In this document: one piece after another, positions 9,077 to 31,508 of the stretch
Numbering within the stretch: the first letter of the stretch is position 1
How the letters are laid out: each line of letters opens with the position of its first letter
Notes under the pieces: model-generated
Databases searched by the model: none
Seen by the model: only the letters and a program-made list of their open reading frames with translations
Told to the model about the DNA's origin: nothing
Assembly: GCA_035710515.1 (NCBI GenBank)
Contig: DASTDE010000001.1
Coordinates: forward strand, 558,001-622,000
Source: Candidatus Rubrimentiphilum sp.
GTDB lineage: Bacteria; Vulcanimicrobiota; Vulcanimicrobiia; Vulcanimicrobiales; Vulcanimicrobiaceae
Direction: 5' to 3'
Length of the DNA stretch: 64,000 nucleotides
Position numbers and translations under genes: made by a program

Positions 9077-9544
9077 ATGAAGATCTGGGGTTTGGCATTA
9101 GCGGCTGCCCTTGCAATCCTTATGGCGCCGCTTGCGCGCGCCGGGGTCGATCCGCTCGTCGCTCGTGGGAAGTATCTTGTCGGCTTCGGCAGTTGTAACG
9201 ACTGCCACACGCCCGGCTGGCGCGAGTCTGATGGGCGCATTCCGGTATCGCAGTGGATGACCGGCAGCAAGATAGGTTATCGCGGACCCTGGGGTACGAG
9301 CTATGCCGCTAACGTGCGGATCGAGTTTTCGCAGATCTCCGAGAAGGACTGGCTTTTCATGGTTCGCACGCGCGCCGGCCGCTGGCCGATGGTCTGGCAC
9401 GATCTGCGCATGCTAAGAACCACCGACCAACAGGCGATCTACCGGTTCGTCCGCAGTTTGGGTGCTCGCGGTAAGCGCGCGCCGGCGGACGTTCCGCCGG
9501 GCCGCGAGCCTTCAACCCCTTATGTTTGGGTTGTGCCGCACTAA
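9077..9544 (+). CDS. Secreted monohaem cytochrome c
   Basis: The 155-residue protein has a signal peptide (IWGLALAAALAILMAPLARA) and one haem c site, C40-N-D-C43-H44, in GSCNDCHTPGW. Several methionines downstream (for example in GRWPMVWHDLRMLR) could give the sixth ligand. The sequence around the haem resembles small periplasmic cytochromes of dehydrogenase complexes. It lies about 1 kb before the ba3-type oxidase genes on the same strand, so it may be an electron donor in that island, though two minus-strand genes separate them. Its stop codon shares four bases (CTAA) with the convergent gene. Confidence 0.85.
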   Translation: MKIWGLALAAALAILMAPLARAGVDPLVARGKYLVGFGSCNDCHTPGWRESDGRIPVSQWMTGSKIGYRGPWGTSYAANVRIEFSQISEKDWLFMVRTRAGRWPMVWHDLRMLRTTDQQAIYRFVRSLGARGKRAPADVPPGREPSTPYVWVVPH

Positions 9545-9960
9545 GCTTTTGCGGTTTTTGGTCTAAGCGCGAAAACGGCTGCCGCGAGAACCAACTGAAC
9601 GACGATGCGCACCAGCATGTAGTTCGCGGGATAGTATTTTCCTAGGTGCATCGCCGTCAAGGCGAAGACGTTCAGGATCGCCGAAGCCACAAGCAAAGCT
9701 ATAAGCGTGTCGATAATTGCAAGGTAGCGGACCGGATCCCGTGCTGCCACGCAGAGCAAATACCCCAGCGCGAGAGCGACGATCCCGATCGCTTTAAAGA
9801 AGATCATCACAAAGTCGCTGTCGCCGAGTGCGAGATTTGCCGGAACGAGTGAGAGCGCCCAATTTGTCGCAAAAAGAAGAATCAGGCCTGCAAGCGCCTC
9901 GAGTACCGACAATGCATAGAGCAGCGTGCTTAGGGTGCCGTAGGGACGGACATTTGTCAT
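9541..9960 (-). CDS. Four-helix membrane protein of unknown function
   Basis: This 139-residue protein has four predicted membrane helices: around LSVLEALAGLILLFATNWAL, VMIFFKAIGIVALALGYLLC, LAIIDTLIALLVASAILNVF, and LVRIVVQLVLAAAVFAL. No catalytic residues stand out and I do not recognise the family. A clear AGGAGA Shine-Dalgarno sequence precedes the ATG, and it follows the SRPBCC-like gene by 22 bp, so the two are probably one transcript. Its place between a cytochrome and an oxidase hints at a respiratory link, but this is context only. Confidence 0.7.
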   Translation of the reverse strand: MTNVRPYGTLSTLLYALSVLEALAGLILLFATNWALSLVPANLALGDSDFVMIFFKAIGIVALALGYLLCVAARDPVRYLAIIDTLIALLVASAILNVFALTAMHLGKYYPANYMLVRIVVQLVLAAAVFALRPKTAKA

Positions 9961-9982
9961 CTAGGTCTCCTATCGTGGCTAT

Positions 9983-10459
9983 TTATGCGGGGTGCTTGGC
10001 GAGAAGTGTTTTCGAAGCTTCCTCGTTGCAGAAGCGTGTTTCCATGATCCGCGCTATTTGCTCCAGGAGCGTACGCGCGGTCGCCGCAGCAATCCTGGAG
10101 CCCACGAGCAGATCAAAGGCTTGTCCGAACGTGCCTAGCGGCGGTGTGTATTCGCCGCGCAGCTCGAGTATCGCGCTACGGTAGCTCTCGTCGGCACGGA
10201 CGATGATTTCGCCGTCGAAATCGGGGTAAGGTCCGCCGTCTTTCGGAGTCCAATGCACGAGCCACGGTTCGTCGAACCGCATGGGATCTTCGCCGCGCTC
10301 GTACGTGACCAGGACGGGTTTTTCCAGCGTTCCAGCTTTAAGGGTGAGCGTAACCGTGCGCTGATTGTCGACGACGCCTTGCAGCGCGCCGTGAAGGTAT
10401 TCGCGGGCACGTACATACGGGCAATTCGTCCTGTAGCGTTCGTAGACGCGGGTCGTCAT
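9983..10459 (-). CDS. SRPBCC-like protein, paralogue A
   Basis: This 158-residue protein matches two others in this window (17920-18375 and 18386-18841). Shared features are an N-terminal NCPYVRAREYL, a central FDEPWLVHWTP, GGPYPDFDGEIIVRAD, and a C-terminal long helix after LRGEYTPPLG with GSRIAAATARTLLEQIA. The pattern of strands, a PPLG turn and a long amphipathic helix resembles the START/SRPBCC fold, which binds hydrophobic ligands; this assignment is by eye. The frame is open to 10594, but alignment with the paralogue sets the start at the ATG at 10459. It is followed by the four-helix membrane protein gene. Confidence 0.68.
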   Translation of the reverse strand: MTTRVYERYRTNCPYVRAREYLHGALQGVVDNQRTVTLTLKAGTLEKPVLVTYERGEDPMRFDEPWLVHWTPKDGGPYPDFDGEIIVRADESYRSAILELRGEYTPPLGTFGQAFDLLVGSRIAAATARTLLEQIARIMETRFCNEEASKTLLAKHPA

Positions 10460-10566
10460 AATGAGCCATTCTGCCGTGCTCGCGAGAATCGCCAAGGACC
10501 ACTTTGGGAAGAACCGAAGAAGCTCGCGCTCACACGCTCTTCCAAGGAGCTCGGTAAAGTTTGCCA

Positions 10567-10698
10567 ATGCTGCCGCGAGAGAAAGGGCCGCCACAGGACG
10601 AACCGCTCCCGGGAACGCTGGCCTTCGTCTTCACGATGGGCGCTGTTTTTGCGATCCTGTGGTTCTTGATGTTCGTCTTGCTGAAGTCGCGCTGGTAG
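10567..10698 (+). CDS. Cytochrome c oxidase subunit IIa-like small membrane protein
   Basis: The 43-residue product starts MLPREKGPPQDEPLPGTLAF and is then one hydrophobic helix (GAVFAILWFLMFVLLKSRW). This size, an N-terminal PxGTLA-like segment and a single helix are typical of the subunit IIa of ba3-type oxidases, which supplies a helix missing from their short subunit II. The stop codon lies one base before the start of the subunit II gene. An in-frame TAA at 10555-10557 limits the start to TTG 10561 or ATG 10567, and AAGGAG lies at 10544-10549. It is small enough to be missed by automatic gene callers. Confidence 0.82.
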   Translation: MLPREKGPPQDEPLPGTLAFVFTMGAVFAILWFLMFVLLKSRW

Positions 10699-10699
10699 C

Positions 10700-11167
10700 A
10701 TGCACGTTCATAAGTACGAACGCTGGTGGATGACATTTGGAATCGTCATGCTGCTCGTTTTCCTGGCGACGATCGGCTTTGCCGCCTTCGCCGACAACAT
10801 GAATCCGCCGAGTGGCTTACAGGCGATCGATCCCACGAAGGTTGCGCAGATACCGCCGTTCGATCATCCGGGCCTGCGCCGTTTACCGGATGGAACCTAC
10901 GAAGCCTATTACGTCGCCGAAGTTTTTGCCTTCAATCCGCAAACGCTGACGGTCCCCGTCGGTAAGAAAATCACGTTTTACGTCACGAGCCCCGACGTCG
11001 TGCACGGCTTCTTCATTCCCAAGACGGACATTAACATGATGGCGGTTCCGGGCTGGGTGAACTCAGACTCGCACGTCTTTACGAGCAAGGGGACATACCT
11101 CTTGATCTGTCACGAGTATTGCGGCATCGGCCACCAGAACATGTTTGCAAAGATCGTGGTGCGATGA
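10700..11167 (+). CDS. Cytochrome c oxidase subunit II, ba3 type (CuA)
   Basis: This 155-residue protein has one N-terminal membrane anchor (MTFGIVMLLVFLATIGFAAF) and a periplasmic cupredoxin domain. The complete CuA site is visible: H102 (VVHGFF) and C137-HEY-C141-GIG-H145-QN-M148. The Glu of the CxExC motif is present. Short, single-helix subunit II proteins belong to B-type (ba3) haem-copper oxidases. It accepts electrons from a periplasmic carrier and passes them to subunit I. The gene lies one base after the subunit IIa-like gene and overlaps subunit I by 4 bp (ATGA). Confidence 0.94.
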   Translation: MHVHKYERWWMTFGIVMLLVFLATIGFAAFADNMNPPSGLQAIDPTKVAQIPPFDHPGLRRLPDGTYEAYYVAEVFAFNPQTLTVPVGKKITFYVTSPDVVHGFFIPKTDINMMAVPGWVNSDSHVFTSKGTYLLICHEYCGIGHQNMFAKIVVR

Positions 11168-12777
11168 TCCTCCGAGAGAACCGGGTCGTCATCGCGCACA
11201 TTTACACGGCGACAGCCGCCATCGTCGTCGGTGCGTTCTTCGGCGCGTTGCAAGGGCTCTCGCGCGCGACTGTGTTTAACGCGCCTGCATGGTTCGATTA
11301 CTACCGGATCCTCACGATGCACGGCGTGCTGATGGCATTAGTCTTTACCACGTTTTTCATCACGGGGCTGGCGCTCTTCGTAACCTACCGGTCGATCCCG
11401 CGCGAGCGAAACACGACGCTCGGCTGGGCGGGCTACTGGGTGATGCTCGCCGGCGTGTTGATGGCCGCGGTCGAAATTCTGGCCGGCAACGCGACGGTGC
11501 TCTACACGTTCTATGCACCGCTCAAGGCAAGTCCCTGGTTTTACGTCGGCGCGGCGATCTTCATCATCGGCACGTGGGTTATCGCGGCCGAGATCTTTGG
11601 AAACATTCTTTGGTTCCGCAAGAACAACCCCGGAATGCCGGTACCGCTGCCTGCATTTACCGCGGGCGCAACGTTCCTCATGTGGTGGATCGCGACGCTA
11701 GGCGTCGTCGGCGAGATGTATCTCCTGATTCCTTGGGCATTCGGCTGGACGCACGGCGTCAACGTCATGCTAACGCGTATGCTGTTTTGGTACTTCGGCC
11801 ACCCGCTCGTCTACTTCTGGATCATGGGCGCTTATATTTGCTGGTACAATATCGTCCCGAAGTTCTACAACGGCAACCTTTTCAGCGACGGCCTGACACG
11901 GCTCACCTTCATCATGCTGCTCTTGCTCTCTACGCCGGTCGGCATTCATCACGAGTTCATGGAGCCGGGCATTTCGGCAACGTGGAAGATGCTGCACACA
12001 ATCACGACGTACGGAGTGGCCATCCCATCCTTCATTACGGCGTTTGCTATCTTCGCGTCGTTCGAATTGGCCGCGCGGCGTTTGGGCAAACGAGGTTTTT
12101 GGCAGACCGTGCAATCGCTGCCGTGGAAGAACCCGGCGTTCTGCGGGCCCGCCTACGGCATGCTGCTGTTTATTCTCGGCGGCTTCGGCGGCTTGGTAAA
12201 CGCCTCGTATTCGATGGACTCGCTAGTCCACAATACGATTTGGATTGTCGGCCACTTCCACGTAACAGTCGGCGGCCCGGTTGCGCTCACGTTTTTGGGC
12301 ATCGCCTACTGGATGATTCCCAAGCTTACCGGGCGAGCGTTATGGAAACCGGCTTGGGCGCTTTGGCAGACGCGTCTGTGGTTTATCGGCATGCTCCTGA
12401 TGTCGTTTTCAATGCATATCGCGGGGCTGATGGGCGCGCCGCGCCGCACAGCGGAAATCAGTTACTTCGGATCGGCGCCGAACGAATGGGCTGCTTATAA
12501 CGCAACCGCTGCTGCCGGCGGACTCGTGCTGCTTACCAGCATCGTCATCTTTGCGTGCGTAGCAGTAGGGACGCTCCTCGCCAACAAAAAAGGCGAAGAC
12601 ATGACCGTCGAGTTCGCGCAGCCGCTCGAAGGATCGGAACGTGCGCCCGCCATGCTGCAAGCGCTTTTCCGGTGGGGCCTTGTGGCATTGGTCGCAGCTG
12701 CCCTCGCGTATGCCGGCCCGCTCTTGGAGATGTTGCACAATCCAGGCTTCCCCGCGCCGGGGATGCGCACGTGGTGA
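11164..12777 (+). CDS. Cytochrome c oxidase subunit I, ba3 type
   Basis: The 537-residue polytopic protein carries the haem-copper oxidase core. A low-spin haem ligand is at H53 (TMHGVLMALVF). The CuB ligand H212 is followed by the cross-link Tyr216 (GHPLVYFW), the CuB pair is H261-H262 (GIHHEFMEPG), and the haem ligands are H363 and H365 (VGHFHVTVGG). The GHPLVYFW form, with no Glu of the D-channel, and the short subunit II place it in the B family, which reduces O2 to water with high affinity. The ATG at 11164 overlaps the subunit II stop. Its own stop overlaps the GTG of a response regulator. No subunit III gene follows. Confidence 0.95.
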   Translation: MILRENRVVIAHIYTATAAIVVGAFFGALQGLSRATVFNAPAWFDYYRILTMHGVLMALVFTTFFITGLALFVTYRSIPRERNTTLGWAGYWVMLAGVLMAAVEILAGNATVLYTFYAPLKASPWFYVGAAIFIIGTWVIAAEIFGNILWFRKNNPGMPVPLPAFTAGATFLMWWIATLGVVGEMYLLIPWAFGWTHGVNVMLTRMLFWYFGHPLVYFWIMGAYICWYNIVPKFYNGNLFSDGLTRLTFIMLLLLSTPVGIHHEFMEPGISATWKMLHTITTYGVAIPSFITAFAIFASFELAARRLGKRGFWQTVQSLPWKNPAFCGPAYGMLLFILGGFGGLVNASYSMDSLVHNTIWIVGHFHVTVGGPVALTFLGIAYWMIPKLTGRALWKPAWALWQTRLWFIGMLLMSFSMHIAGLMGAPRRTAEISYFGSAPNEWAAYNATAAAGGLVLLTSIVIFACVAVGTLLANKKGEDMTVEFAQPLEGSERAPAMLQALFRWGLVALVAAALAYAGPLLEMLHNPGFPAPGMRTW

Positions 12778-13481
12778 ATAACGGCGGCCCGTCCGGCGCC
12801 GGCAAGCGCATCCTGATTGTCGACGACGAAGCGCAGATAGGTGAGGTTCTGAGCGCGTACCTCCAACAGGAATCGTTTGAGGTTGTCGTTTGTCAAACTG
12901 TCGCTACGGCATTGGCCGAACTCGAGCGGCAAAGGCCCGACATGATGATTCTCGACATCACGCTGCCCGACGGCAGCGGGCTAGACATATTGCGCCGCGG
13001 AGTCAAATCCCATCGCATTCCGACGATTATGTTGACCGCCCGCAGCGACGAGGTCGATCGGGTAGTCGGTTTGGAGCTCGGTGCGGACGACTACATCGTG
13101 AAGCCGTTTTCGCCGCGAGAGGTGGTTGCACGCGTTCGCGCCGTCATGCGCCGCGTCGACAGGGAAGCCGAAGACACAAGCCAGGCGTTGCGAGTCAAAG
13201 ACCTGGAAATCGACGAAGGCGCTCACGAAGTGCGCGTGGCGGGGTCAGTTGTGCCGATCACGCCGGCAGAGTTCCGGATCCTTCAGGTGCTCGCGCAGAA
13301 TGCCGGGCACGTACTCACCCGCGCGCAGTTGCTGGACCTCGTTCACGACGACGGGAGCATCTTCGAGCGCACGCTCGACCGTCATATCAACAACCTCCGG
13401 CGCAAGATCGAGCCCAATCCCGAGGACCCCGTCTATGTCGTCACGGTGTACGGGGTCGGCTACAAATTGCGCAAAGACTAA
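12774..13481 (+). CDS. OmpR/PhoB-family response regulator
   Basis: This 235-residue protein has a receiver domain (RILIVDDEAQIG, phospho-acceptor D61 in ILDITLPDGSG, Lys in IVKPFSPRE). Its winged-helix DNA-binding domain runs from about 140 to 232 (ITPAEFRILQVLAQNAG, FERTLDRHINNLRRKI, and the wing VVTVYGVGYKL). The GTG start at 12774 overlaps the oxidase subunit I stop (GTGA), so it is translated with the oxidase. It probably controls the oxidase or the neighbouring cupredoxin/porin genes. No full histidine kinase is encoded beside it; only the small DHp-like protein follows. Confidence 0.93.
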   Translation: MNNGGPSGAGKRILIVDDEAQIGEVLSAYLQQESFEVVVCQTVATALAELERQRPDMMILDITLPDGSGLDILRRGVKSHRIPTIMLTARSDEVDRVVGLELGADDYIVKPFSPREVVARVRAVMRRVDREAEDTSQALRVKDLEIDEGAHEVRVAGSVVPITPAEFRILQVLAQNAGHVLTRAQLLDLVHDDGSIFERTLDRHINNLRRKIEPNPEDPVYVVTVYGVGYKLRKD

Positions 13482-13795
13482 TGAATAAGAAGCTCCTTCT
13501 CGCACTCGACCTCTGCATGGCGGAGGATTGGGACGCGGCGAAACTCAGCCTCGAAGGCCTTGACGATGCGGCGGCCGCCCGTTTGGCAATGCTCATAACG
13601 CTGCAGCAAGAACGCGAAAAGAACCATCTCCAAATGCTGAAGAAGGCACGCCACGAGCTGGGCAACACGCTCTCGGTGGCCCAAGCCAATCTGGAGGCGA
13701 TGCTCGATGGCGTTCTTGAGACTACGCCTGAACGATTACGCTCGATTGCGGACTCACTGCGCGCGGCCGGCGCAGTCGTACTCGACCTGAAGTAG
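13481..13795 (+). CDS. Stand-alone histidine phospho-acceptor (DHp-like) protein
   Basis: This 104-residue protein is soluble and mainly helical. Residues 40-104 look like the dimerisation/phospho-acceptor helices of a histidine kinase: ARHELGNTLSVAQANLEAML with H58 as the likely phospho-site, then a second helix ERLRSIADSLRAAGAVVLDL. No ATPase domain follows; the frame stops here. The ATG overlaps the regulator stop (TAATG), so the two are translationally coupled. It could be a phosphotransfer protein feeding the OmpR regulator, or a decoy/phosphatase for it. A sequence loss of the catalytic domain is less likely because no kinase remnant lies downstream. Confidence 0.75.
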   Translation: MNKKLLLALDLCMAEDWDAAKLSLEGLDDAAAARLAMLITLQQEREKNHLQMLKKARHELGNTLSVAQANLEAMLDGVLETTPERLRSIADSLRAAGAVVLDLK

Positions 13796-13845
13796 CCTTC
13801 CCAGAGCGTTCGCAAGTTGTTCGCGTGGCTTGCTCATCGGCAGGC

Positions 13846-13851
13846 TATGCT
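13846..13851 (+). promoter_or_regulatory. -10-like box six nt before cupredoxin start
   Basis: TATGCT, six bases (GACCGC), then ATG at 13858, with no Shine-Dalgarno sequence. Upstream, the elements CTTCCC and TTGCTCA recur before the second cupredoxin gene (14728). Confidence 0.45.
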
Positions 13852-13857
13852 GACCGC

Positions 13858-14211
13858 ATGAAAAGATTCTTTGGTATTGTCTTGCCTCTATTCGCCGTGC
13901 TTGTATTCGCGTCGGTTCCGGTCGCCGCGTCGAGCGCAACCCTAAGCATCACGGCGTCCGATTGGAAATTTACGCCCGGCACGATTACCGTGCATGTGAA
14001 CAAGCCGGTGACCTTGCAGCTAACCTCCAGTCAAGGCGTGCACGGCTTGGCATCGCCCGAGCTGGGCATTAACAACACGATGATCGTTCCGAACGGCCAT
14101 GTGTCGGTAACGTTTACGCCGAAAAAACTCGGAACGTACGTCATTCATTGTTCGCTCATGTGTGGCGCGGGACACGCCAACATGAAGCTCGTCGTGAAAG
14201 TCGTCCGATAG
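13858..14211 (+). CDS. Secreted CuA-motif cupredoxin, copy 1
   Basis: This 117-residue protein has a signal peptide (FFGIVLPLFAVLVFASVPVAA) and a single cupredoxin domain. The ligand pattern is that of CuA: H62 (GVHGLAS) and C98-SLM-C102-GAG-H106-AN-M109. True subunit II proteins have Glu between the two Cys; here that position is Leu, but the Glu binds through its backbone so CuA may still form. There is no membrane anchor, so it would be a free periplasmic electron carrier. Two paralogues lie at 14728 and 16388. It follows the oxidase and its regulator on the same strand. Confidence 0.86.
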   Translation: MKRFFGIVLPLFAVLVFASVPVAASSATLSITASDWKFTPGTITVHVNKPVTLQLTSSQGVHGLASPELGINNTMIVPNGHVSVTFTPKKLGTYVIHCSLMCGAGHANMKLVVKVVR

Positions 14212-14219
14212 GCGCCGGT

Positions 14220-14654
14220 ATGGTCCTGCCGTTGCCGGACGCTGACGTCGAACGGCTGCTGAGCGCCCAGCGGGTCGGGCGTATCGGTTGTTACGCGGAC
14301 GGCCGCACGTACGTCGTGCCTATAGCGTACGCCTATGTTGGCGGCTGCGTTTACGCCCATAGCACGAACGGCGCGAAGGTCCGTATGATGCGGAAAAATC
14401 CGAACGTCTGCTTTGAGGTGGATTGCGCCGAGACGTTTTCCAATTGGAGCAGCGTGATTGCCTGGGGCACCTATGAGGAACTCCACGGCGAACCGGCGCG
14501 CGAAGCGATGCGGATGCTCCTGCTGCACTTCTTGGATCAAAAGGCGCGGCCGGCGGCGCACTCCCTGGCGCCCGATCGCCCCGGCATTTCCGAGGGCGAC
14601 GCCGTCGTCTACCGCATCCGCCTCACCGAAAAGACCGGCCGCTTCGAGTCCTGA
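14220..14654 (+). CDS. Pyridoxamine 5'-phosphate oxidase-like flavin-binding protein
   Basis: The 144-residue protein shows the split-barrel flavin fold: LLSAQRVGRIGCYADGRTYVVPIAYAYV in outline, then YAHSTNGAKVRMMRKNPNVCFEVD and a WSSVIAWGTYEEL strand. This pattern is common in small FMN- or F420-binding proteins of the PNPOx family. It is unlikely to be the PLP-biosynthetic enzyme, which is longer. It sits 8 bp after the first cupredoxin gene and is followed by the second, so it may have a redox role in the island. Substrate unknown. No signal peptide, hence cytoplasmic. Confidence 0.83.
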   Translation: MVLPLPDADVERLLSAQRVGRIGCYADGRTYVVPIAYAYVGGCVYAHSTNGAKVRMMRKNPNVCFEVDCAETFSNWSSVIAWGTYEELHGEPAREAMRMLLLHFLDQKARPAAHSLAPDRPGISEGDAVVYRIRLTEKTGRFES

Positions 14655-14715
14655 GTCTTCCCCAAACCTTCTCAATCGTTCCCTGCGTTTGCTCAGCCTT
14701 TACTCATTAGGGCGC

Positions 14716-14721
14716 TAACCT
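14716..14721 (+). promoter_or_regulatory. -10-like box six nt before second cupredoxin
   Basis: TAACCT, six bases (GAAGGC), then ATG at 14728. GAAGG is purine-rich but too close to the ATG to be a usual Shine-Dalgarno sequence, so a leaderless start is possible. Confidence 0.4.
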
Positions 14722-14727
14722 GAAGGC

Positions 14728-15102
14728 ATGAGAAACCTTGTTTACGCGGCCACGTTCCTGGCTATATCGGGCCTGCTCGCGATTCCGACTTTTGTCAGCG
14801 CGCAGACCGATTCGACTATCAACGTCGTCGCTTCCAACTGGAAATTCACCACGGACTCGGCCTCGCCCGGAACCGTTACGGTGCATCTCAATCAGACGAC
14901 GACACTACGCGTCACATCGAAGGAAGGCGCGCACTCGATCGGATCGACCGCGCTCGGCATTCCTGAAACCATTTTGCTGCCGGGCAAATCCGTTACGCTG
15001 ACGTTCACCCCGAAGAAAGTCGGCACGTACGAGCTGCATTGCAACCTTCCGTGCGGACCCGGTCATCCCGACATGAAGCTCATCGTAAAGGTAGTGGAAT
15101 AA
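14728..15102 (+). CDS. Secreted CuA-motif cupredoxin, copy 2
   Basis: This 124-residue protein has a signal peptide (ending near FVSAQ) and one cupredoxin domain. Predicted CuA ligands are H69 (GAHSIG) and C105-NLP-C109-GPG-H113-PD-M116. It shares the strand NVVASNWKF and the end MKLIVKVV with copies 1 and 3. The stop overlaps the start of the downstream porin-cytochrome gene (TAATG), so the two are made together. This fixed pairing, repeated at 16388/16732, suggests that the cupredoxin takes electrons from the outer-membrane cytochrome and passes them on in the periplasm. Confidence 0.86.
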   Translation: MRNLVYAATFLAISGLLAIPTFVSAQTDSTINVVASNWKFTTDSASPGTVTVHLNQTTTLRVTSKEGAHSIGSTALGIPETILLPGKSVTLTFTPKKVGTYELHCNLPCGPGHPDMKLIVKVVE

Positions 15103-16310
15103 TGAAAAAACTGCTGCTTGCAACAGCGGTTTGCGCGTTCGCCGTGCTGGGCCTTTCGGCCCAGCGCGCGAACGCGATGCCGCCGTTCGCACAATCCTAT
15201 GGAGTTGACTGCAACACTTGTCACACGATGGTCCCGGCGCTTAACGCGTACGGGCGGTATATTCAAAGGACCGCATACGCCGGCTTGAATTATCACGTGC
15301 TGAGGAGCTCGTCGCCATTTTGGATCAGCGAGCGCCTTCGCAGCAAGAGCACCGGCAGTCTGGATCGCTTGCGCCCCAATTTCAAGACCACGGCTGGTAA
15401 TGTGACCGTCGATGCAGTCGGCGCGCTCGGTCCGGCATGGACCTATCGCATCGAGCAGTCGCTCTACAGCAACAACATCGGCGGATCCGTCATGGGCCGC
15501 GCATGGGTAGGCTACAGCAACATCTTCCAGCGTCACGGTCATATCTCGGTTGGGAAATTGGATCCCGCCGTTCCGTCCTTCATGGCCGGCTGGCAAGACA
15601 CCACCGGCTTCGGCGGCAGCACCGGACTCAGCGTCGGCAAGCACAAGTATGCGTTCAGCAGCCCGCGCTGGGGCGCGCGCTTCGACTACGATGCCGAGAA
15701 CTTTGCCGTCGCGCTCTCTTGGGGAGCCGGCACAAGCGGCTTACTGCAAGCGGGAGACTTCAGTGTAAACCCTGGAACCGATAAGGTGTTCGACTGGACG
15801 GTTTCGTACGCGAATCCCGGCAAGCCGTTCGAAGCCGGCATGTACGGAGCCATGGGCGGGTTCGAGGTTTCGAACAAAATTCTGGATCGCTATAGCTTGG
15901 CGGGCTTCTACGCGCAACGCGATCCGTATCGCGGTTTCCCCGGAATCTTCGCCTACTATCAAATCTCGAACGATTCCAATCCTGGGTCCGCGCCGGTTGG
16001 TTCGCCGAAAAACGCGCTGCCGATTCCGGTAACCAGCCACAGCTACGCGTTCGAGATCTACCAAGGGTTCTTCAACGACCAGATCATGCTCGGATACCGT
16101 CCGCTCGAAATCGTGCAGTCGGGACTCGGCCCGATAACGCGGTTCGGCAACATCGACTTCGCCTCACGGATCCCGCACGCTCCGTATCTGTTCTTCAATG
16201 CGGAAGCGTCGTTCGGCGGAAGCTCGGCCGCGCCGTTCGGAAGGCCGACGTGGCAGTACGGACTGCGCTGGGCCGGTCCGATAGGGGACAACCCCTTCAA
16301 GATCCACTGA
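15102..16310 (+). CDS. Cyc2-like outer-membrane monohaem porin-cytochrome, copy 1
   Basis: The 402-residue protein has a signal peptide ending at about residue 25. One haem site follows at once: MPPFAQSYGVDCNTCHTMVP with C37 and C40-H41, then ALNAYGRYIQRTAY. The remaining 340 residues alternate polar and hydrophobic positions, are rich in Gly, Tyr, Phe and Trp, and end in aromatic strands, as expected for a beta-barrel. A PxFA-x-G-x2-CxxCH-x3-PxLN-x-(F/Y)G N-terminus on a 400-residue barrel is the layout of Cyc2-type fused cytochrome-porins, some of which oxidise Fe(II) at the cell surface. The donor here is not known. The start overlaps the cupredoxin stop. Confidence 0.78.
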   Translation: MKKLLLATAVCAFAVLGLSAQRANAMPPFAQSYGVDCNTCHTMVPALNAYGRYIQRTAYAGLNYHVLRSSSPFWISERLRSKSTGSLDRLRPNFKTTAGNVTVDAVGALGPAWTYRIEQSLYSNNIGGSVMGRAWVGYSNIFQRHGHISVGKLDPAVPSFMAGWQDTTGFGGSTGLSVGKHKYAFSSPRWGARFDYDAENFAVALSWGAGTSGLLQAGDFSVNPGTDKVFDWTVSYANPGKPFEAGMYGAMGGFEVSNKILDRYSLAGFYAQRDPYRGFPGIFAYYQISNDSNPGSAPVGSPKNALPIPVTSHSYAFEIYQGFFNDQIMLGYRPLEIVQSGLGPITRFGNIDFASRIPHAPYLFFNAEASFGGSSAAPFGRPTWQYGLRWAGPIGDNPFKIH

Positions 16311-16321
16311 GATCTACCTGA

Positions 16322-16348
16322 GGAAGGAGCGCGAATAGCGCTCCTTCC
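16322..16348 (+). terminator. Hairpin after first porin-cytochrome gene
   Basis: A perfect 11-bp stem (GGAAGGAGCGC with GCGCTCCTTCC) surrounds the loop GAATA 12 nt after the stop codon. No T-run follows. It separates the first and second cupredoxin/porin pairs and may be a terminator or an RNA-stabilising stem. Confidence 0.6.
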
Positions 16349-16387
16349 CTCACGCTCTGAATTCGCGCACGGTAAGGAACGGATCAT

Positions 16388-16729
16388 ATGAAAAAATCTC
16401 TCTCCCTCGCCCTCATGCTTGCGTTTATGAGCCCACTTGCCGCGTGGAGTCACCCAAGCATCGATGTCGTAGCGTCCAATTGGAAATTTACGCCCGATAC
16501 GATTACCGTTCATCTCAACGAACCGACTACGTTACGATTGACTTCGAGCGAAGGAGTTCACGGGATCGAATCGGCCGACTTGGGCATTCCCAAAACAATC
16601 ATCCCCCCGCAACGCTTTGTGACTGTTGCGTTCGTTCCCAAGAAGTTAGGGACTTATAAGGTATACTGCGCGGTCATCTGCGGCGCGGGGCACCCCAATA
16701 TGATACTTATTGTAAAGGTCGTGCAATAG
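16388..16729 (+). CDS. Secreted CuA-motif cupredoxin, copy 3
   Basis: This 113-residue protein has a signal peptide (LSLALMLAFMSPLAAWS) and one cupredoxin domain. Predicted ligands are H58 (GVHGIES) and C94-AVI-C98-GAG-H102-PN-M105, the CuA spacing without the usual Glu. An AAGGA Shine-Dalgarno sequence precedes the ATG, unlike copies 1 and 2. It is followed after 2 bp by the second porin-cytochrome gene, repeating the pair at 14728/15102. The two pairs probably arose by tandem duplication followed by divergence. Confidence 0.86.
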   Translation: MKKSLSLALMLAFMSPLAAWSHPSIDVVASNWKFTPDTITVHLNEPTTLRLTSSEGVHGIESADLGIPKTIIPPQRFVTVAFVPKKLGTYKVYCAVICGAGHPNMILIVKVVQ

Positions 16730-16731
16730 TC

Positions 16732-17919
16732 ATGTTCGATCGCATGCAACGCGCCATTCTATCGGCGGGACTAGTCGCTGCTGCCCTTACCCTTTCGGTG
16801 CCGGCACCGGCTATCGCCATGCCTATTTTTGCAAAGGCCTACGGTTTGCAGTGCAGCGCCTGCCACACGCTGGTGCCGGCGCTCAACGCGTACGGCCGGT
16901 ACGTTCAGCGCACCGGTTACGCTTCGCTCAATCGCGATGTGCTAAAAGATCACTTGCCGTTTTGGCTCGGCGAACAAATCAACGGCGACAGTACCGGCGG
17001 TGTTAGCCGGAATTCGGACACTGCCAAGATTTCGGCGGGGAACGTAGCCATCCACGGCGCGGGTTATCTGGCGCCCGACATCACCTATCACGTTCAGCAA
17101 TGGCTGCTTGAAAGCGATCGAACCGGCGGTTCTCTGGATACCGCCTGGGTAACCTATAACAACCTCTTTCATCGCGACGGCCACCTGTTTGTTGGAAAGA
17201 TTGAAGCGCCTGCGCCGTCGCCGTTCAGTCAATGGTTTGATATTTCGGCCTTTTCATCGGCCGGCATCACCGTTGGCGAACACACGTATCAGCTGGACGC
17301 AAACCGCTGGGGCGTCAAACTCGCTTACGTTCACGGTCCATGGGACGTCGAGGGCGGTTGGCTGTTGAGCGGAAACGGTTTACCCGGTGCTCCCGATTTT
17401 GATACTGTGCCCGGAACAGACAAGACGTTTCAATGGAAGCTCGCTAATGCATCAGGTGACCGTCCGTACGAAGCCGGGTTGTATGGAAGCTCGGGAAGCT
17501 TTATCGTCTCGACCGGCGACGCCGACCGGTACAATTCTATCGCCGGATACTTTCAGCTCGATCCGAACTCGCACGGAGTCCCCGGTTTCTTGTCGATCTA
17601 CCAGTTAGGAAACGATAGCAATCCGGGACTTGACGCAGACGGAAATCAACTCGCCGCTGCGCGCAGCCGTGCATTCAGCGCGGAGATCTACGAACCGCTA
17701 TTTAACAACAATGCCCTGATTGGCTACCGAACCGAGTACACGGACGACGGTTTAGGTACGCTGACTCACTTCGGCAATGTCGACTTCGCCTTCACGGTTC
17801 CTCACGTGCAGTACTTGCATGGGTACATCGAAGCCTCACTTGCGGGGAGTTCCGGAACCGAAAATGACACGCCGGCGTGGCGCTGGTTCCTTTGGTGGAC
17901 GACCCCGCTTGGCCGCTGA
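16732..17919 (+). CDS. Cyc2-like outer-membrane monohaem porin-cytochrome, copy 2
   Basis: This 395-residue paralogue of the gene at 15102 has a signal peptide (AAALTLSVPAPAIA) followed by MPIFAKAYGLQCSACHTLVP with haem ligands C41, C44 and H45, then ALNAYGRYVQRTGY. A barrel-like region follows, sharing the blocks GHLFVGKIE (GHISVGKLD in copy 1), GLYGSSGSF, NDSNPGLDADG and HFGNVDFAFTVPH. The conserved N-terminal haem block and the more divergent barrel fit a common electron-transfer function with different surface properties. It ends directly against the convergent SRPBCC-like gene with no gap. Confidence 0.78.
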   Translation: MFDRMQRAILSAGLVAAALTLSVPAPAIAMPIFAKAYGLQCSACHTLVPALNAYGRYVQRTGYASLNRDVLKDHLPFWLGEQINGDSTGGVSRNSDTAKISAGNVAIHGAGYLAPDITYHVQQWLLESDRTGGSLDTAWVTYNNLFHRDGHLFVGKIEAPAPSPFSQWFDISAFSSAGITVGEHTYQLDANRWGVKLAYVHGPWDVEGGWLLSGNGLPGAPDFDTVPGTDKTFQWKLANASGDRPYEAGLYGSSGSFIVSTGDADRYNSIAGYFQLDPNSHGVPGFLSIYQLGNDSNPGLDADGNQLAAARSRAFSAEIYEPLFNNNALIGYRTEYTDDGLGTLTHFGNVDFAFTVPHVQYLHGYIEASLAGSSGTENDTPAWRWFLWWTTPLGR

Positions 17920-18375
17920 CTAAGAGCTGACGCCGCCTCGTCTGCTCGCCCTTTCAGCGTCCCACTTTCGTTCGATCCGCGCGCACAAATCGGCGAGCAC
18001 TCTTTTCATTGTGATTCGAGCTATCTGCTGTCCCGCAACGGCATCGAAAACTGCACCGGAAAATCCAAATGGCGGCTTGTATCGGCCATGCAGACTTAAT
18101 TCGGCGCCGCGGCCGCTGGGCCGCGCCGTCAATACACCTTGGAAATCCGGAAACATGCCGCGATGACGCGGCTTCCAGGCCAGCAGCAGCGCATCGTGGA
18201 GGCGAACCTCATCGCTACGATCGTCGACGACGGCAGTTCGAGCGTCCACGCTTTCCGAAACGACCGGCACCGGTGAGACGTGCATCCCGGGGCTCTCGTT
18301 CATCGCCTTCTCGGCAAATTCAATCACCGCGGAAAATGGACACGCGCAATATCGCGTAGCGCGAATTTCCCTCAT
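17920..18375 (-). CDS. SRPBCC-like protein, paralogue C (divergent)
   Basis: This 151-residue protein is distantly related to those at 9983 and 18386. It keeps the N-terminal CACPF, the block FPDFQGVLTARPSG, the turn GRYKPPFGFSGAVFD and the final helix QQIARITMKRVLADL. The central region has an extra segment around MHVSPVPVVSE. The frame is open to 18486, but AGGAGA eight bases before the ATG at 18375 marks the start. It lies 10 bp after the paralogue gene at 18386 and is probably co-transcribed. Ligand and role unknown; START/SRPBCC fold suggested by pattern only. Confidence 0.65.
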   Translation of the reverse strand: MREIRATRYCACPFSAVIEFAEKAMNESPGMHVSPVPVVSESVDARTAVVDDRSDEVRLHDALLLAWKPRHRGMFPDFQGVLTARPSGRGAELSLHGRYKPPFGFSGAVFDAVAGQQIARITMKRVLADLCARIERKWDAERASRRGGVSS

Positions 18376-18385
18376 ACCCGGTCTC

Positions 18386-18841
18386 CTATTTTTTCGCCGC
18401 TTCCTCTTCGTTGAACCGCGTTTCCATATGATCCGCGATTTGCTGAAGAAGTGCGCGCGCGGTGGTCGCAGCGATACGTGAACCAAGTGCGAAATCGAAT
18501 ACTTCCCCGACTGCGCCCAGAGGCGGCACGTACTCTCCGCGCAATTCGAGTAACGAATTGCGATAACTATCGTCTGCGCGCACCGTGAGCTCGCCGTCGA
18601 AATCGGGATATGGCCCGCCGCCCTCCGGCGTCCAACGGATGAGCCATGGCTCGTCGAAATGCATCGCGTCGCTGCCGTGCTTGTACGTGACCAAAACTGG
18701 TTTCGCCAGCGCTCCTGCGGTGAGGCCGAGAGTCGTAACGCGGTTATCCTTGGCGACGGCTTCCAGGGATTCGTGCAAATACTCGCGCGCGCGATGATAC
18801 GGGCATTTTGTGGGATGGCTTTCGTAGACGTGCGTTGCCAT
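18386..18841 (-). CDS. SRPBCC-like protein, paralogue B
   Basis: This 151-residue protein is clearly similar to the one at 9983. Shared blocks are KCPYHRAREYLHESL, FDEPWLIRWTPEGGG, PYPDFDGELTVRADDSYR, LELRGEYVPPLG and GSRIAATTARALLQQIADH. The fold looks like START/SRPBCC, with a long C-terminal helix. The repeat of this family on both sides of the oxidase/porin island, always on the minus strand, suggests they belong to the same functional group. It may be a lipid- or cofactor-binding or co-regulatory protein. An AAGGG sequence precedes the ATG. Confidence 0.68.
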   Translation of the reverse strand: MATHVYESHPTKCPYHRAREYLHESLEAVAKDNRVTTLGLTAGALAKPVLVTYKHGSDAMHFDEPWLIRWTPEGGGPYPDFDGELTVRADDSYRNSLLELRGEYVPPLGAVGEVFDFALGSRIAATTARALLQQIADHMETRFNEEEAAKK

Positions 18842-29265: not shown

Positions 29266-29360
29266 AAAACCTCCGACCGAAGTAGCTGTCTCCTCGAGGT
29301 GCGCCTTCACAGAGGGCGCCTCCTTTGTTCGGCCAACCTACCGCGCGGGGAGGTTTCTTG

Positions 29361-31508
29361 ATGGCCAAGCCTTTTTTTGGTTTTGCGCGTGCAGTGGGAG
29401 TCACCGTCGCGTTGATCGCGGTCGCCGGTTCGAGTGTTTCGGCGAGCAAACTGGTCCGCCAGAAACCGCTGAACGCCTTGCGAATCCCGCAATTCGTTGA
29501 GAACCTGCCGGATTTTTCCGTCCTCGGGCGAGTGAACGGCGACGTGCCCTACCGGGTGAGGTTTGAAGCGTTCCAGCAGAAAATTCTGCCGTCTTCATTT
29601 TATGCGACATTGGCGGCGCCGTATTCCGGCGGCACCGCGGTCTACGGCTACGGAATAGATCAAGGTACGAAGCACTATCCGGCGTCGCCGATCAAGGGCC
29701 TGTATCCCGGATACACCGTCGTTGTAACGCGAGGTCATGGCGCCTTCGCGGATTACCGGAACAACCTGAGTTCGAACCTCGCTCGAACGCTGACCATCGA
29801 TCAAAGTATCGATTGGGCGAACCCGGCACACTCGCCGATGTCGACGCGCGGCATGGGAAACGCCACGCCTTATCTCGGCGCGATTCCGGCCGTCACGCAT
29901 TTGCACGGCGCCGAGGATCCTTCGGCTTTCGACGGCAACCCGAACTCGTGGTTCACGCCGGGAGTGAAGGCCCGCGGCCCCGGGTTTAGCACCAACGTTT
30001 ACGGTTATCCCAACACCCAAGAACCGACGACGCTGTGGTTCCACGACCACACGCTCGGCACGACCCGGCTGAATGTTTACGCCGGCATGGAAGCCTTCTA
30101 TTTGATCCGCGGCAACGGCGACGACGGCGTCCCGGGCGCGCGCAAACTTCCGGCCGGACGGCAAGAAGTCGAACTCGTTCTGCAAGACCGCCAGTTTGAC
30201 ACGAACGGCCAGCTCCTGTTCCCGGACGGCTATCCTTCGGGTTTGGACGGACCGCTGCAAAATCCGAAGCTGCATCCGTACTGGATGCCGGAATTTTTCG
30301 GCGACGTCATCACGGTCAACGGCAAAAGTTGGCCCAAGTTCAACGTTGCCGCGAAGCGCTACCGGCTGCGCCTTTTAGACGGCGCGAACGATCGTTTCTT
30401 CAACCTGCAGTTTTGCGTGACTACCTGCGAGACCAAAGCGCCGTTCTACGTAATCGGCAACGATGGCGGTCTGCTCGACAAACCGGTGAAGATCGATCAT
30501 CTGCTGTTTTCGCCCGGCGAACGGTATGACATAATCGTCGATTTTGCCGCGTACCGCGGAAAAGCCATTACGGTCCGCAACGACGCCGTTACGCCGTATC
30601 CCAGCAAGTTTGCAAAATTCACGCCCGCACTGCAAGGCCAGGTGATGCGATTCATCGTCTCGCCGAGCGCTGCGGCCGACGTAAGCTACAATCCGGCTAG
30701 CGGTGCGCCGTTGCGCGGTGCGGGCAGCAGCGTAGCTCCGGGGCTGGCGAAGATCGTCCGGTTGCCCGGAACGAGAGGCGGTTTGCCGCTGAGCTCGCCG
30801 ATTGCGGACGGAAAGAAGGTTCAAGTCTACCGTCAACTGACGCTGAATCCGATCTTTGGATCGGGCGGCTGTCACTGGCCCGGCGCAGGCAACGGCGACG
30901 TCATCAACACCATGCTGCTGAACAACACGAAGTTTAGCGCCAAGGCGACGGAGAAGCCGCGCGTGGGATCGACGGAAGTCTGGGACATCATCGACTTGAG
31001 CAACGACGACCACCCGATCCACGTGCACTTGGTGCAATTTCAAGTCATCGGCCGGATTCCGTTCGATCTGGCCGCGTACGGCCCCGCCTACTACGCGGCG
31101 TTTGGACACGGCCGGTGCAATCCCGAGTCCGGTCCGCCAAGACCGTACAATGTCCCGAATAGCGCCGGCGCCCTCGGCGGAAATCCTGACGTCACAAAGT
31201 TTTTCCTAAAGAGGACGCTGCCGTATTGTATGGACGACGGCACCGTGGATGGCACGAACGGACCGGCGAGACTTGAAGAGGGTGGCTGGAAAGACACCGT
31301 TATTGCTTCTTGCGGTCACGTGACGCGCGTTGTCGTACGCTTCACGCCGCAGGATCTGCCGGCGGTTGCCAACGGGAGAGCCATCGACTATACGGGGCAA
31401 AACAAATTCCCATTTGATCCGACCCAAGGGCCAGGTTACATTTGGCACTGTCATTTTATCGACCACGAAGATAATGAGATGATGCGCCCGATGATCGTTG
31501 TGAAGTGA
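29361..31508 (+). CDS. Secreted multicopper oxidase
   Basis: This 715-residue protein has a signal peptide (VGVTVALIAVAGSSVSA) and all four copper motifs: H180-L-H182 in THLHGAEDP, H228-D-H230 in LWFHDHTLG, HPIHVHLVQF near residue 560, and the type-1 site HCHFIDHEDNEMMRP at the C-terminus. The order and the long insertions resemble CotA/bilirubin-oxidase-like enzymes. Members oxidise phenols, bilirubin or Mn(II)/Cu(I) with O2. A GGGAGG Shine-Dalgarno sequence precedes the ATG. The stop overlaps the GTG of the next gene, so it is coupled to an ABM/membrane protein. Confidence 0.93.
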   Translation: MAKPFFGFARAVGVTVALIAVAGSSVSASKLVRQKPLNALRIPQFVENLPDFSVLGRVNGDVPYRVRFEAFQQKILPSSFYATLAAPYSGGTAVYGYGIDQGTKHYPASPIKGLYPGYTVVVTRGHGAFADYRNNLSSNLARTLTIDQSIDWANPAHSPMSTRGMGNATPYLGAIPAVTHLHGAEDPSAFDGNPNSWFTPGVKARGPGFSTNVYGYPNTQEPTTLWFHDHTLGTTRLNVYAGMEAFYLIRGNGDDGVPGARKLPAGRQEVELVLQDRQFDTNGQLLFPDGYPSGLDGPLQNPKLHPYWMPEFFGDVITVNGKSWPKFNVAAKRYRLRLLDGANDRFFNLQFCVTTCETKAPFYVIGNDGGLLDKPVKIDHLLFSPGERYDIIVDFAAYRGKAITVRNDAVTPYPSKFAKFTPALQGQVMRFIVSPSAAADVSYNPASGAPLRGAGSSVAPGLAKIVRLPGTRGGLPLSSPIADGKKVQVYRQLTLNPIFGSGGCHWPGAGNGDVINTMLLNNTKFSAKATEKPRVGSTEVWDIIDLSNDDHPIHVHLVQFQVIGRIPFDLAAYGPAYYAAFGHGRCNPESGPPRPYNVPNSAGALGGNPDVTKFFLKRTLPYCMDDGTVDGTNGPARLEEGGWKDTVIASCGHVTRVVVRFTPQDLPAVANGRAIDYTGQNKFPFDPTQGPGYIWHCHFIDHEDNEMMRPMIVVK

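Follow-up and report, generated by a model that had tools for sequence, protein, structure and literature searches.

Cytochrome-porins of the Cyc2 type consist of a signal peptide, a single CxxCH motif and a 16-strand porin (PMC8406198), and Cyc2 serves as a marker of iron oxidation. In the rus operon of Acidithiobacillus, the genes are arranged as cyc2-cyc1-cup-coxBACD-rus (PMC10654088). A gene island of similar composition occupies positions 9077 to 17919 of the window, by which is meant the whole 64,000-nucleotide stretch analysed here, taken from the 2.54-Mb genome of Candidatus Rubrimentiphilum sp. (phylum Eremiobacterota, also WPS-2). As in the rus operon, an outer-membrane cytochrome-porin, a periplasmic cytochrome, a copper protein and an oxidase lie in one cluster. 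The island, however, has CuA cupredoxins where the rus operon has Cup and rusticyanin, a mononuclear blue copper protein; its oxidase is of the ba3 (B-type) rather than the aa3 kind, its cytochrome is not recognised as a c4, and its host belongs to another phylum, so that an earlier note on this DNA was right to speak of an unrelated lineage. The best explanation of the island is an electron path leading from an outer-membrane haem through a periplasmic CuA carrier to the ba3 oxidase and oxygen, to which a probability of about 60% is assigned.

Two further described systems bear on this comparison. A Cyc2-like protein has already been reported in the metagenome-assembled genome (MAG) Eremiobacterota MAG 15 (PMC8357290), which by its description is like the present case in its phylum and its Cyc2-like cytochrome; the passages on it mention no cupredoxin pairing or fusion. 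A CuA site in a periplasmic cupredoxin outside an oxidase is known from PmoD, a cupredoxin-type protein tied to copper-dependent growth (PMC6189053), but PmoD has a C-terminal transmembrane (TM) helix, a CuA site between two subunits and another ligand set, whereas the cupredoxins of the window hold the full classical set within one chain. Literature on Cyc2 together with cupredoxins or CuA, and on Cyc2, iron oxidation or extracellular electron transfer in Eremiobacterota, yielded no description of a CuA pairing or fusion. CuA pairing and CuA fusions of cytochrome-porins thus appear to be undescribed, a provisional conclusion since the subscription literature lay mostly outside the search.

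A predicted 16-strand barrel with a Cyc2-like N-terminus

An AlphaFold2 model of barrel 1, built on an alignment of 58 relatives, places short helices at the haem site and 16 long strands after them (mean pLDDT 82.5, pTM 0.81). In a Foldseek comparison with the PDB, 16-strand porins came first (E 4e-11), among them OmpT of Vibrio, PorB and chitoporin at E values of about 1e-10; OprP was also among the matches. Barrel 2, at 42-43% identity to barrel 1, is assigned its barrel fold by homology only. These matches to ordinary porins would suit an account in which the two partners have independent functions, the barrel being a haem-tagged porin for solutes and the neighbouring cupredoxin a general oxidase donor. 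The fusions and overlapping genes described below make this improbable, as does the CxxCH motif, which is invariant in all 58 aligned family members.

Each barrel carries one CxxCH at residue 37, counted in barrel 2 from an inner start at 16744, behind a signal peptide assigned by inspection of the N-terminus. With Cyc2 (Keffer 2021, PMC8406198), the barrels share the signal peptide, the single CxxCH, the PXL that follows it (CNTCHTMVPAL and CSACHTLVPAL), the 16-strand porin and a length of at least 365 aa (402 and 391-395 aa). The motif upstream, AXPXFAR[Q/K][T/Y] in Cyc2, reads AMPPFAQSY and AMPIFAKAY; A, P, F, A and Y are kept, but R is changed to Q or K and the following Q/K to S or A, while the motif occurs unaltered (AIPVFARQY) in a paralogue encoded by this genome. 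When six Cyc2-like proteins from Pseudomonadota, none of them a characterised Cyc2 sequence, were compared by profile, the full length gave 96.8% but the barrel alone 0.4%, equal to the reversed control, so that no sequence homology is detectable in the barrel part. With paralogues from the same class, of which one has the exact motif, the corresponding values were 99.6% and 97.1%.

On the strength of the common architecture and the near-match to the motif, the barrels are Cyc2-like. Membership in Cyc2 in the broad sense is likely, yet it falls short of proof because two defining letters of the motif are changed, and the barrels are therefore not filed as Cyc2. They also differ from Cyc2 in being paired with, and in relatives fused to, a CuA cupredoxin. 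The Cyc2-like barrels proposed in the earlier note hold up in their predicted fold and N-terminus, with sequence homology to the Pseudomonadota proteins shown for the haem segment only.

Relatives of the barrel were sought by exact peptide patterns in 84,980 species genomes and were found only in records of Eremiobacterota or in MAG records without a phylum label; because the scan was limited to such patterns, absence elsewhere is not proven. The nearest relative is that of isolate palsa_1523, at 74% identity in barrel 1, and one genome (G006, contig C7) is of the same genus as the window genome by kinship. With paralogues counted, a homologue occurs in 53 of 60 kin genomes and is missing from the five genomes placed in other classes of Eremiobacterota. 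Neither barrel matched a Pfam or NCBIfam family, a PDB sequence search with one barrel, also as a profile, gave no match, and no relative was found in the viral contigs searched or in the plasmids searched with P0001. A search of plasmids with a paralogue, by contrast, brought up Cyc2-like proteins from Caballeronia, Ideonella and Acidithiobacillus, among others. On a Caballeronia plasmid (L150:2220-5941), the Cyc2-like gene, whose annotated start misses the haem site, adjoins genes for a HiPIP, a c-type cytochrome and a PPOX-family protein, and a PPOX gene is present in the window island too. In Acidithiobacillus ferrooxidans and Acidiphilium, plasmids (L154:3860-6156, L155:2860-4700) carry a Cyc2-like gene together with a c-type cytochrome and nearby transposase genes; the copy of Acidiphilium multivorum is annotated as two pieces.

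Pairing and fusion of the barrels with probable electron carriers

Of the 66 barrel genes, 41 stand immediately behind a same-strand CuA cupredoxin gene, and most of these pairs overlap by 4 bp. As the density of CuA-motif open reading frames (ORFs; 78 in 1.16 Mb) predicts such a neighbour for only about 1 in 100 barrels, chance pairing is excluded. The distances of cupredoxins and barrels correlate (Mantel r 0.74, 0 of 1000 permutations), a value that includes the effect of the species tree. The earlier note had named structure prediction and conservation of the pair as checks. The first gave a 16-strand barrel and not a soluble or unrelated cytochrome family, and the second a pair kept in related genomes, with four fusions besides; neither of the outcomes that would have spoken against the note, a structure without a barrel or an unconserved pair, was found.

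Support that the earlier note did not have comes from fusions in relatives. Four of the 66 barrels continue into a C-terminal CuA domain; such fusions were seen in P0003, where Pfam confirms the cupredoxin, in P0006 and in L051/L100. In a model of the fused barrel and CuA domain (pLDDT 78, pTM 0.65), the linker scored below 50 and no usable docking resulted. The possibility that these 508-516-aa proteins are frame artefacts was rejected, as they stand as open frames with a linker at four loci in three genomes. Four barrels (L086, L144, L103 and L105) have a cytochrome c domain at the same C-terminal partner position, and Pfam confirms this domain in P0004 (L046, on a contig shared with L144) and P0005. 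In L086 and L137, a multihaem cytochrome c gene takes the upstream position instead, and its family occurs near barrels in 23 loci.

In the tree of the barrels, CuA pairing extends over nearly all clades. The clade of CuA fusions adjoins one cytochrome c fusion, and the second cytochrome c fusion lies on a distant branch, which places the exchange on two separate branches. Since CuA is swapped for cytochrome c at one position on two branches, the partner would be an interchangeable electron carrier, and this exchange, read from sequence, is the best argument that the partner carries electrons. Gene order and, in some genomes, fusion indicate the periplasmic partner of these distant Cyc2-like barrels.

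The same exchange argues against the main rival for the window set, namely that barrel and CuA cupredoxin serve copper homeostasis by binding, oxidising or passing copper, in a Pco/Cop-like manner or in loading the CuA site of ba3. Copper proteins do dominate the island, and PmoD ties a CuA-site cupredoxin to copper-dependent growth (PMC6189053). Furthermore, contig 3 of the same genome (L055:7648-14238) encodes a second kind of cytochrome-barrel, a 576-aa protein that joins a CxxCH barrel, a cytochrome c domain and an additional C-terminal region; a TonB receptor gene precedes it, and genes for a multicopper oxidase and an ArsP-type permease come after it, a setting that allows a copper-related role. 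The replacement of CuA by cytochrome c is, however, difficult to reconcile with a copper carrier, the barrels keep CxxCH and the Cyc2-like motif throughout, and no Sco, PCuAC or CopA-like family was seen among the most frequent neighbour clusters, which were judged by eye from sequence. Copper handling is therefore considered unlikely. ORFs of 440-670 aa similar to the L055 cytochrome-barrel are found in many kin genomes.

The CuA carriers, the ba3 oxidase and the proposed electron path

All three secreted cupredoxins of the island pass the Cupredoxin_1 cut-off and two pass that of COX2, with cupredoxin 2 just short of it (19.6 against 22 bits). Each shows the CuA pattern H ... CxxxCxxxHxxM in a cupredoxin fold, and all 44 aligned copies keep the ligands H, C, C, H and M, of which C/C/H/M, though not the upstream His, served in their selection. 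The three CuA-type carriers with a complete ligand set, as well as a subunit IIa-like ORF and subunits II and I of a ba3 oxidase, are thus as the earlier note described them. The best PDB matches of CoxA are Thermus ba3 (E 3.5e-116), with A-type oxidases reaching only about 1e-14, and CoxB is a short subunit II with a full CuA site and a weak match to the ba3-type transmembrane model PF09125; together these features identify a B-type oxidase. While subunits I and II are homologous to those of Thermus, the window genes differ in being linked to cytochrome-porins, a linkage that recurs: ba3 genes occur in 15 of 74 barrel loci, against about 0.5 expected by our own estimate. Homologues of the 155-aa cytochrome are present in a few loci; three of these (L075, 76%; L082, 58%; L081) contain ba3 genes or a CuA-barrel pair as well.

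From this gene set we infer the position of the haem, the transfer of electrons, their inward direction and the donor. The Cyc2-like protein would form a 16-strand porin in the outer membrane, its single c-type haem being carried by a short N-terminal stretch that faces the periplasm. The termini of porins are periplasmic, which puts the haem segment and the fused CuA domain on one side. A small reduced donor, such as dissolved iron, may enter through the barrel and give its electron to the haem, whence it would pass to the CuA cupredoxin encoded directly upstream and, directly or via the 155-aa cytochrome c, to the CuA subunit of ba3, which would reduce oxygen with conservation of energy.

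Electron uptake is the most likely direction. A conduit of this kind could in principle run both ways, with the CuA carrier reducing the barrel haem and electrons leaving to an outside acceptor, but CuA carriers usually have a high potential, the ba3 oxidase reduces oxygen, the set resembles an oxidising system and no multihaem exporter was seen among the ORFs of the island; outward flow is very improbable.

As to the donor, Fe(II) leads by analogy, being the one measured for Cyc2-type proteins (PMC8406198), with Mn(II) next and other reductants conceivable. That the same parts instead serve Mn(II), reduced humics or another outside reductant is a variant overlapping the electron path proposed here, and it is held to be possible but doubtful. 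It draws on Ca. Manganitrophaceae, in which Cyc2 is also a candidate for Mn(II) oxidation (PMC9040806), on the two barrels and the multicopper oxidases of the genome, and on the changed R and Q/K of the motif; the potential of CuA sites, on the other hand, is usually too low for Mn(II).

Several observations weigh against the path from outer-membrane haem to ba3, in addition to the setting of the L055 paralogue. Homology to the Pseudomonadota proteins rises above the reversed control only in the haem segment, a CuA neighbour is missing from 20 of the 66 barrels, the pairing having been lost in one clade, and many loci are without ba3 genes. In the host genome, two haem-copper oxidases and one cytochrome b were detected, but neither RuBisCO nor a type II reaction centre. 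The cultured representative of the phylum did not grow lithotrophically on H2, sulfide or thiosulfate; iron is absent from the donors named in the main text of that study (PMC9758169). Judged from the gene content, classical autotrophy on iron by the Calvin-Benson-Bassham cycle is not indicated for the host. Without detectable RuBisCO, any lithotrophy would probably be an energy supplement to heterotrophy, unless carbon is fixed by another route.

The earlier reading of the island as an uptake chain is thus supported in part, namely in its predicted barrel fold, Cyc2-like N-terminus, CuA carriers, ba3 linkage and conserved pair. Its extension to most of the class Eremiobacteria, as iron or manganese oxidisers with an undescribed surface electron-uptake chain in which CuA proteins, paired with or fused to the Cyc2-like cytochrome-porins, replace rusticyanin and cytochrome c and feed ba3, is put forward tentatively, at somewhat less than even odds. 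Were it true, a mineral-linked energy source would be added to a phylum that is mostly known from soils, mosses and permafrost, and CuA would gain a role as mobile carrier between outer membrane and oxidase.

Composition and surroundings of the island

The genes named in the earlier note were all recovered, at about the positions given there, from ORFs, Pfam matches and sequence (Table 1). Cupredoxin 1 is followed by the PPOX-family gene, and barrels follow only cupredoxins 2 and 3.

Table 1. Features of the island in the window, with barrel-CuA fusions of relatives in the last row
Feature	Position	Strand	Evidence or remark
Secreted monohaem c-type cytochrome, 155 aa, one CNDCH	9077..9544	+	ORF; no Pfam match
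Subunit IIa-like single-TM ORF of B-type oxidase, 43 aa	10568..10699	+	Position and TM; no profile match
CoxB, CuA subunit II of ba3-type oxidase	10700..11167	+	PF00116 (COX2) E 1.6e-12; PF09125 (COX2-transmemb, ba3-type) below cut-off
CoxA, subunit I of ba3 (B-type) oxidase	11164..12777	+	PF00115 E 1.6e-87; Thermus ba3 E 3.5e-116
OmpR-type response regulator, overlapping CoxA end	12771..13481	+	PF00072 and PF00486; start codon by inspection
HisKA-only protein, about 104 aa	13478..13795	+	PF00512 E 3e-4, below cut-off
Secreted CuA cupredoxin 1, without own barrel	13858..14211	+	PF13473 (Cupredoxin_1) and PF00116 above cut-off; CuA ligands
PPOX-family flavin protein; membership of system uncertain	14220..14654	+	PF12900 E 5e-19
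Secreted CuA cupredoxin 2; stop overlaps barrel 1 start (TAATG)	14728..15102	+	Cupredoxin_1; CuA ligands
Cyc2-like cytochrome-porin 1, 402 aa, AMPPFAQSYGVDCNTCHTMVPAL, predicted 16-strand barrel	15102..16310	+	AlphaFold, Foldseek, motif
Secreted CuA cupredoxin 3, 2 bp ahead of barrel 2	16388..16729	+	Cupredoxin_1; CuA ligands
Cyc2-like cytochrome-porin 2, 395 aa, AMPIFAKAYGLQCSACHTLVPAL	16732..17919	+	42-43% identity to barrel 1; common family tree
Barrel-CuA fusions, CuA domain C-terminal, 4/66	L082:8013-9551, L098:9962-11503, L100:9962-11509, L143:7656-9179		

The HisKA-only protein stands directly after the response regulator, and histidine-kinase or regulator genes are present in 20 of the 74 loci. 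Three minus-strand proteins without a Pfam match (9983-10594, 17920-18486 and 18386-18841) flank the island; two of the three have a GGGPYP(D/S)F segment in common, the likeness otherwise lying in the C-terminal part, and a similar protein lies near barrels in 21 of the 74 loci. At 29325-31508, 11 kb downstream, the window encodes a 727-aa multicopper oxidase (CueO/PhsA-like) adjoining a molybdenum hydroxylase-like gene set.

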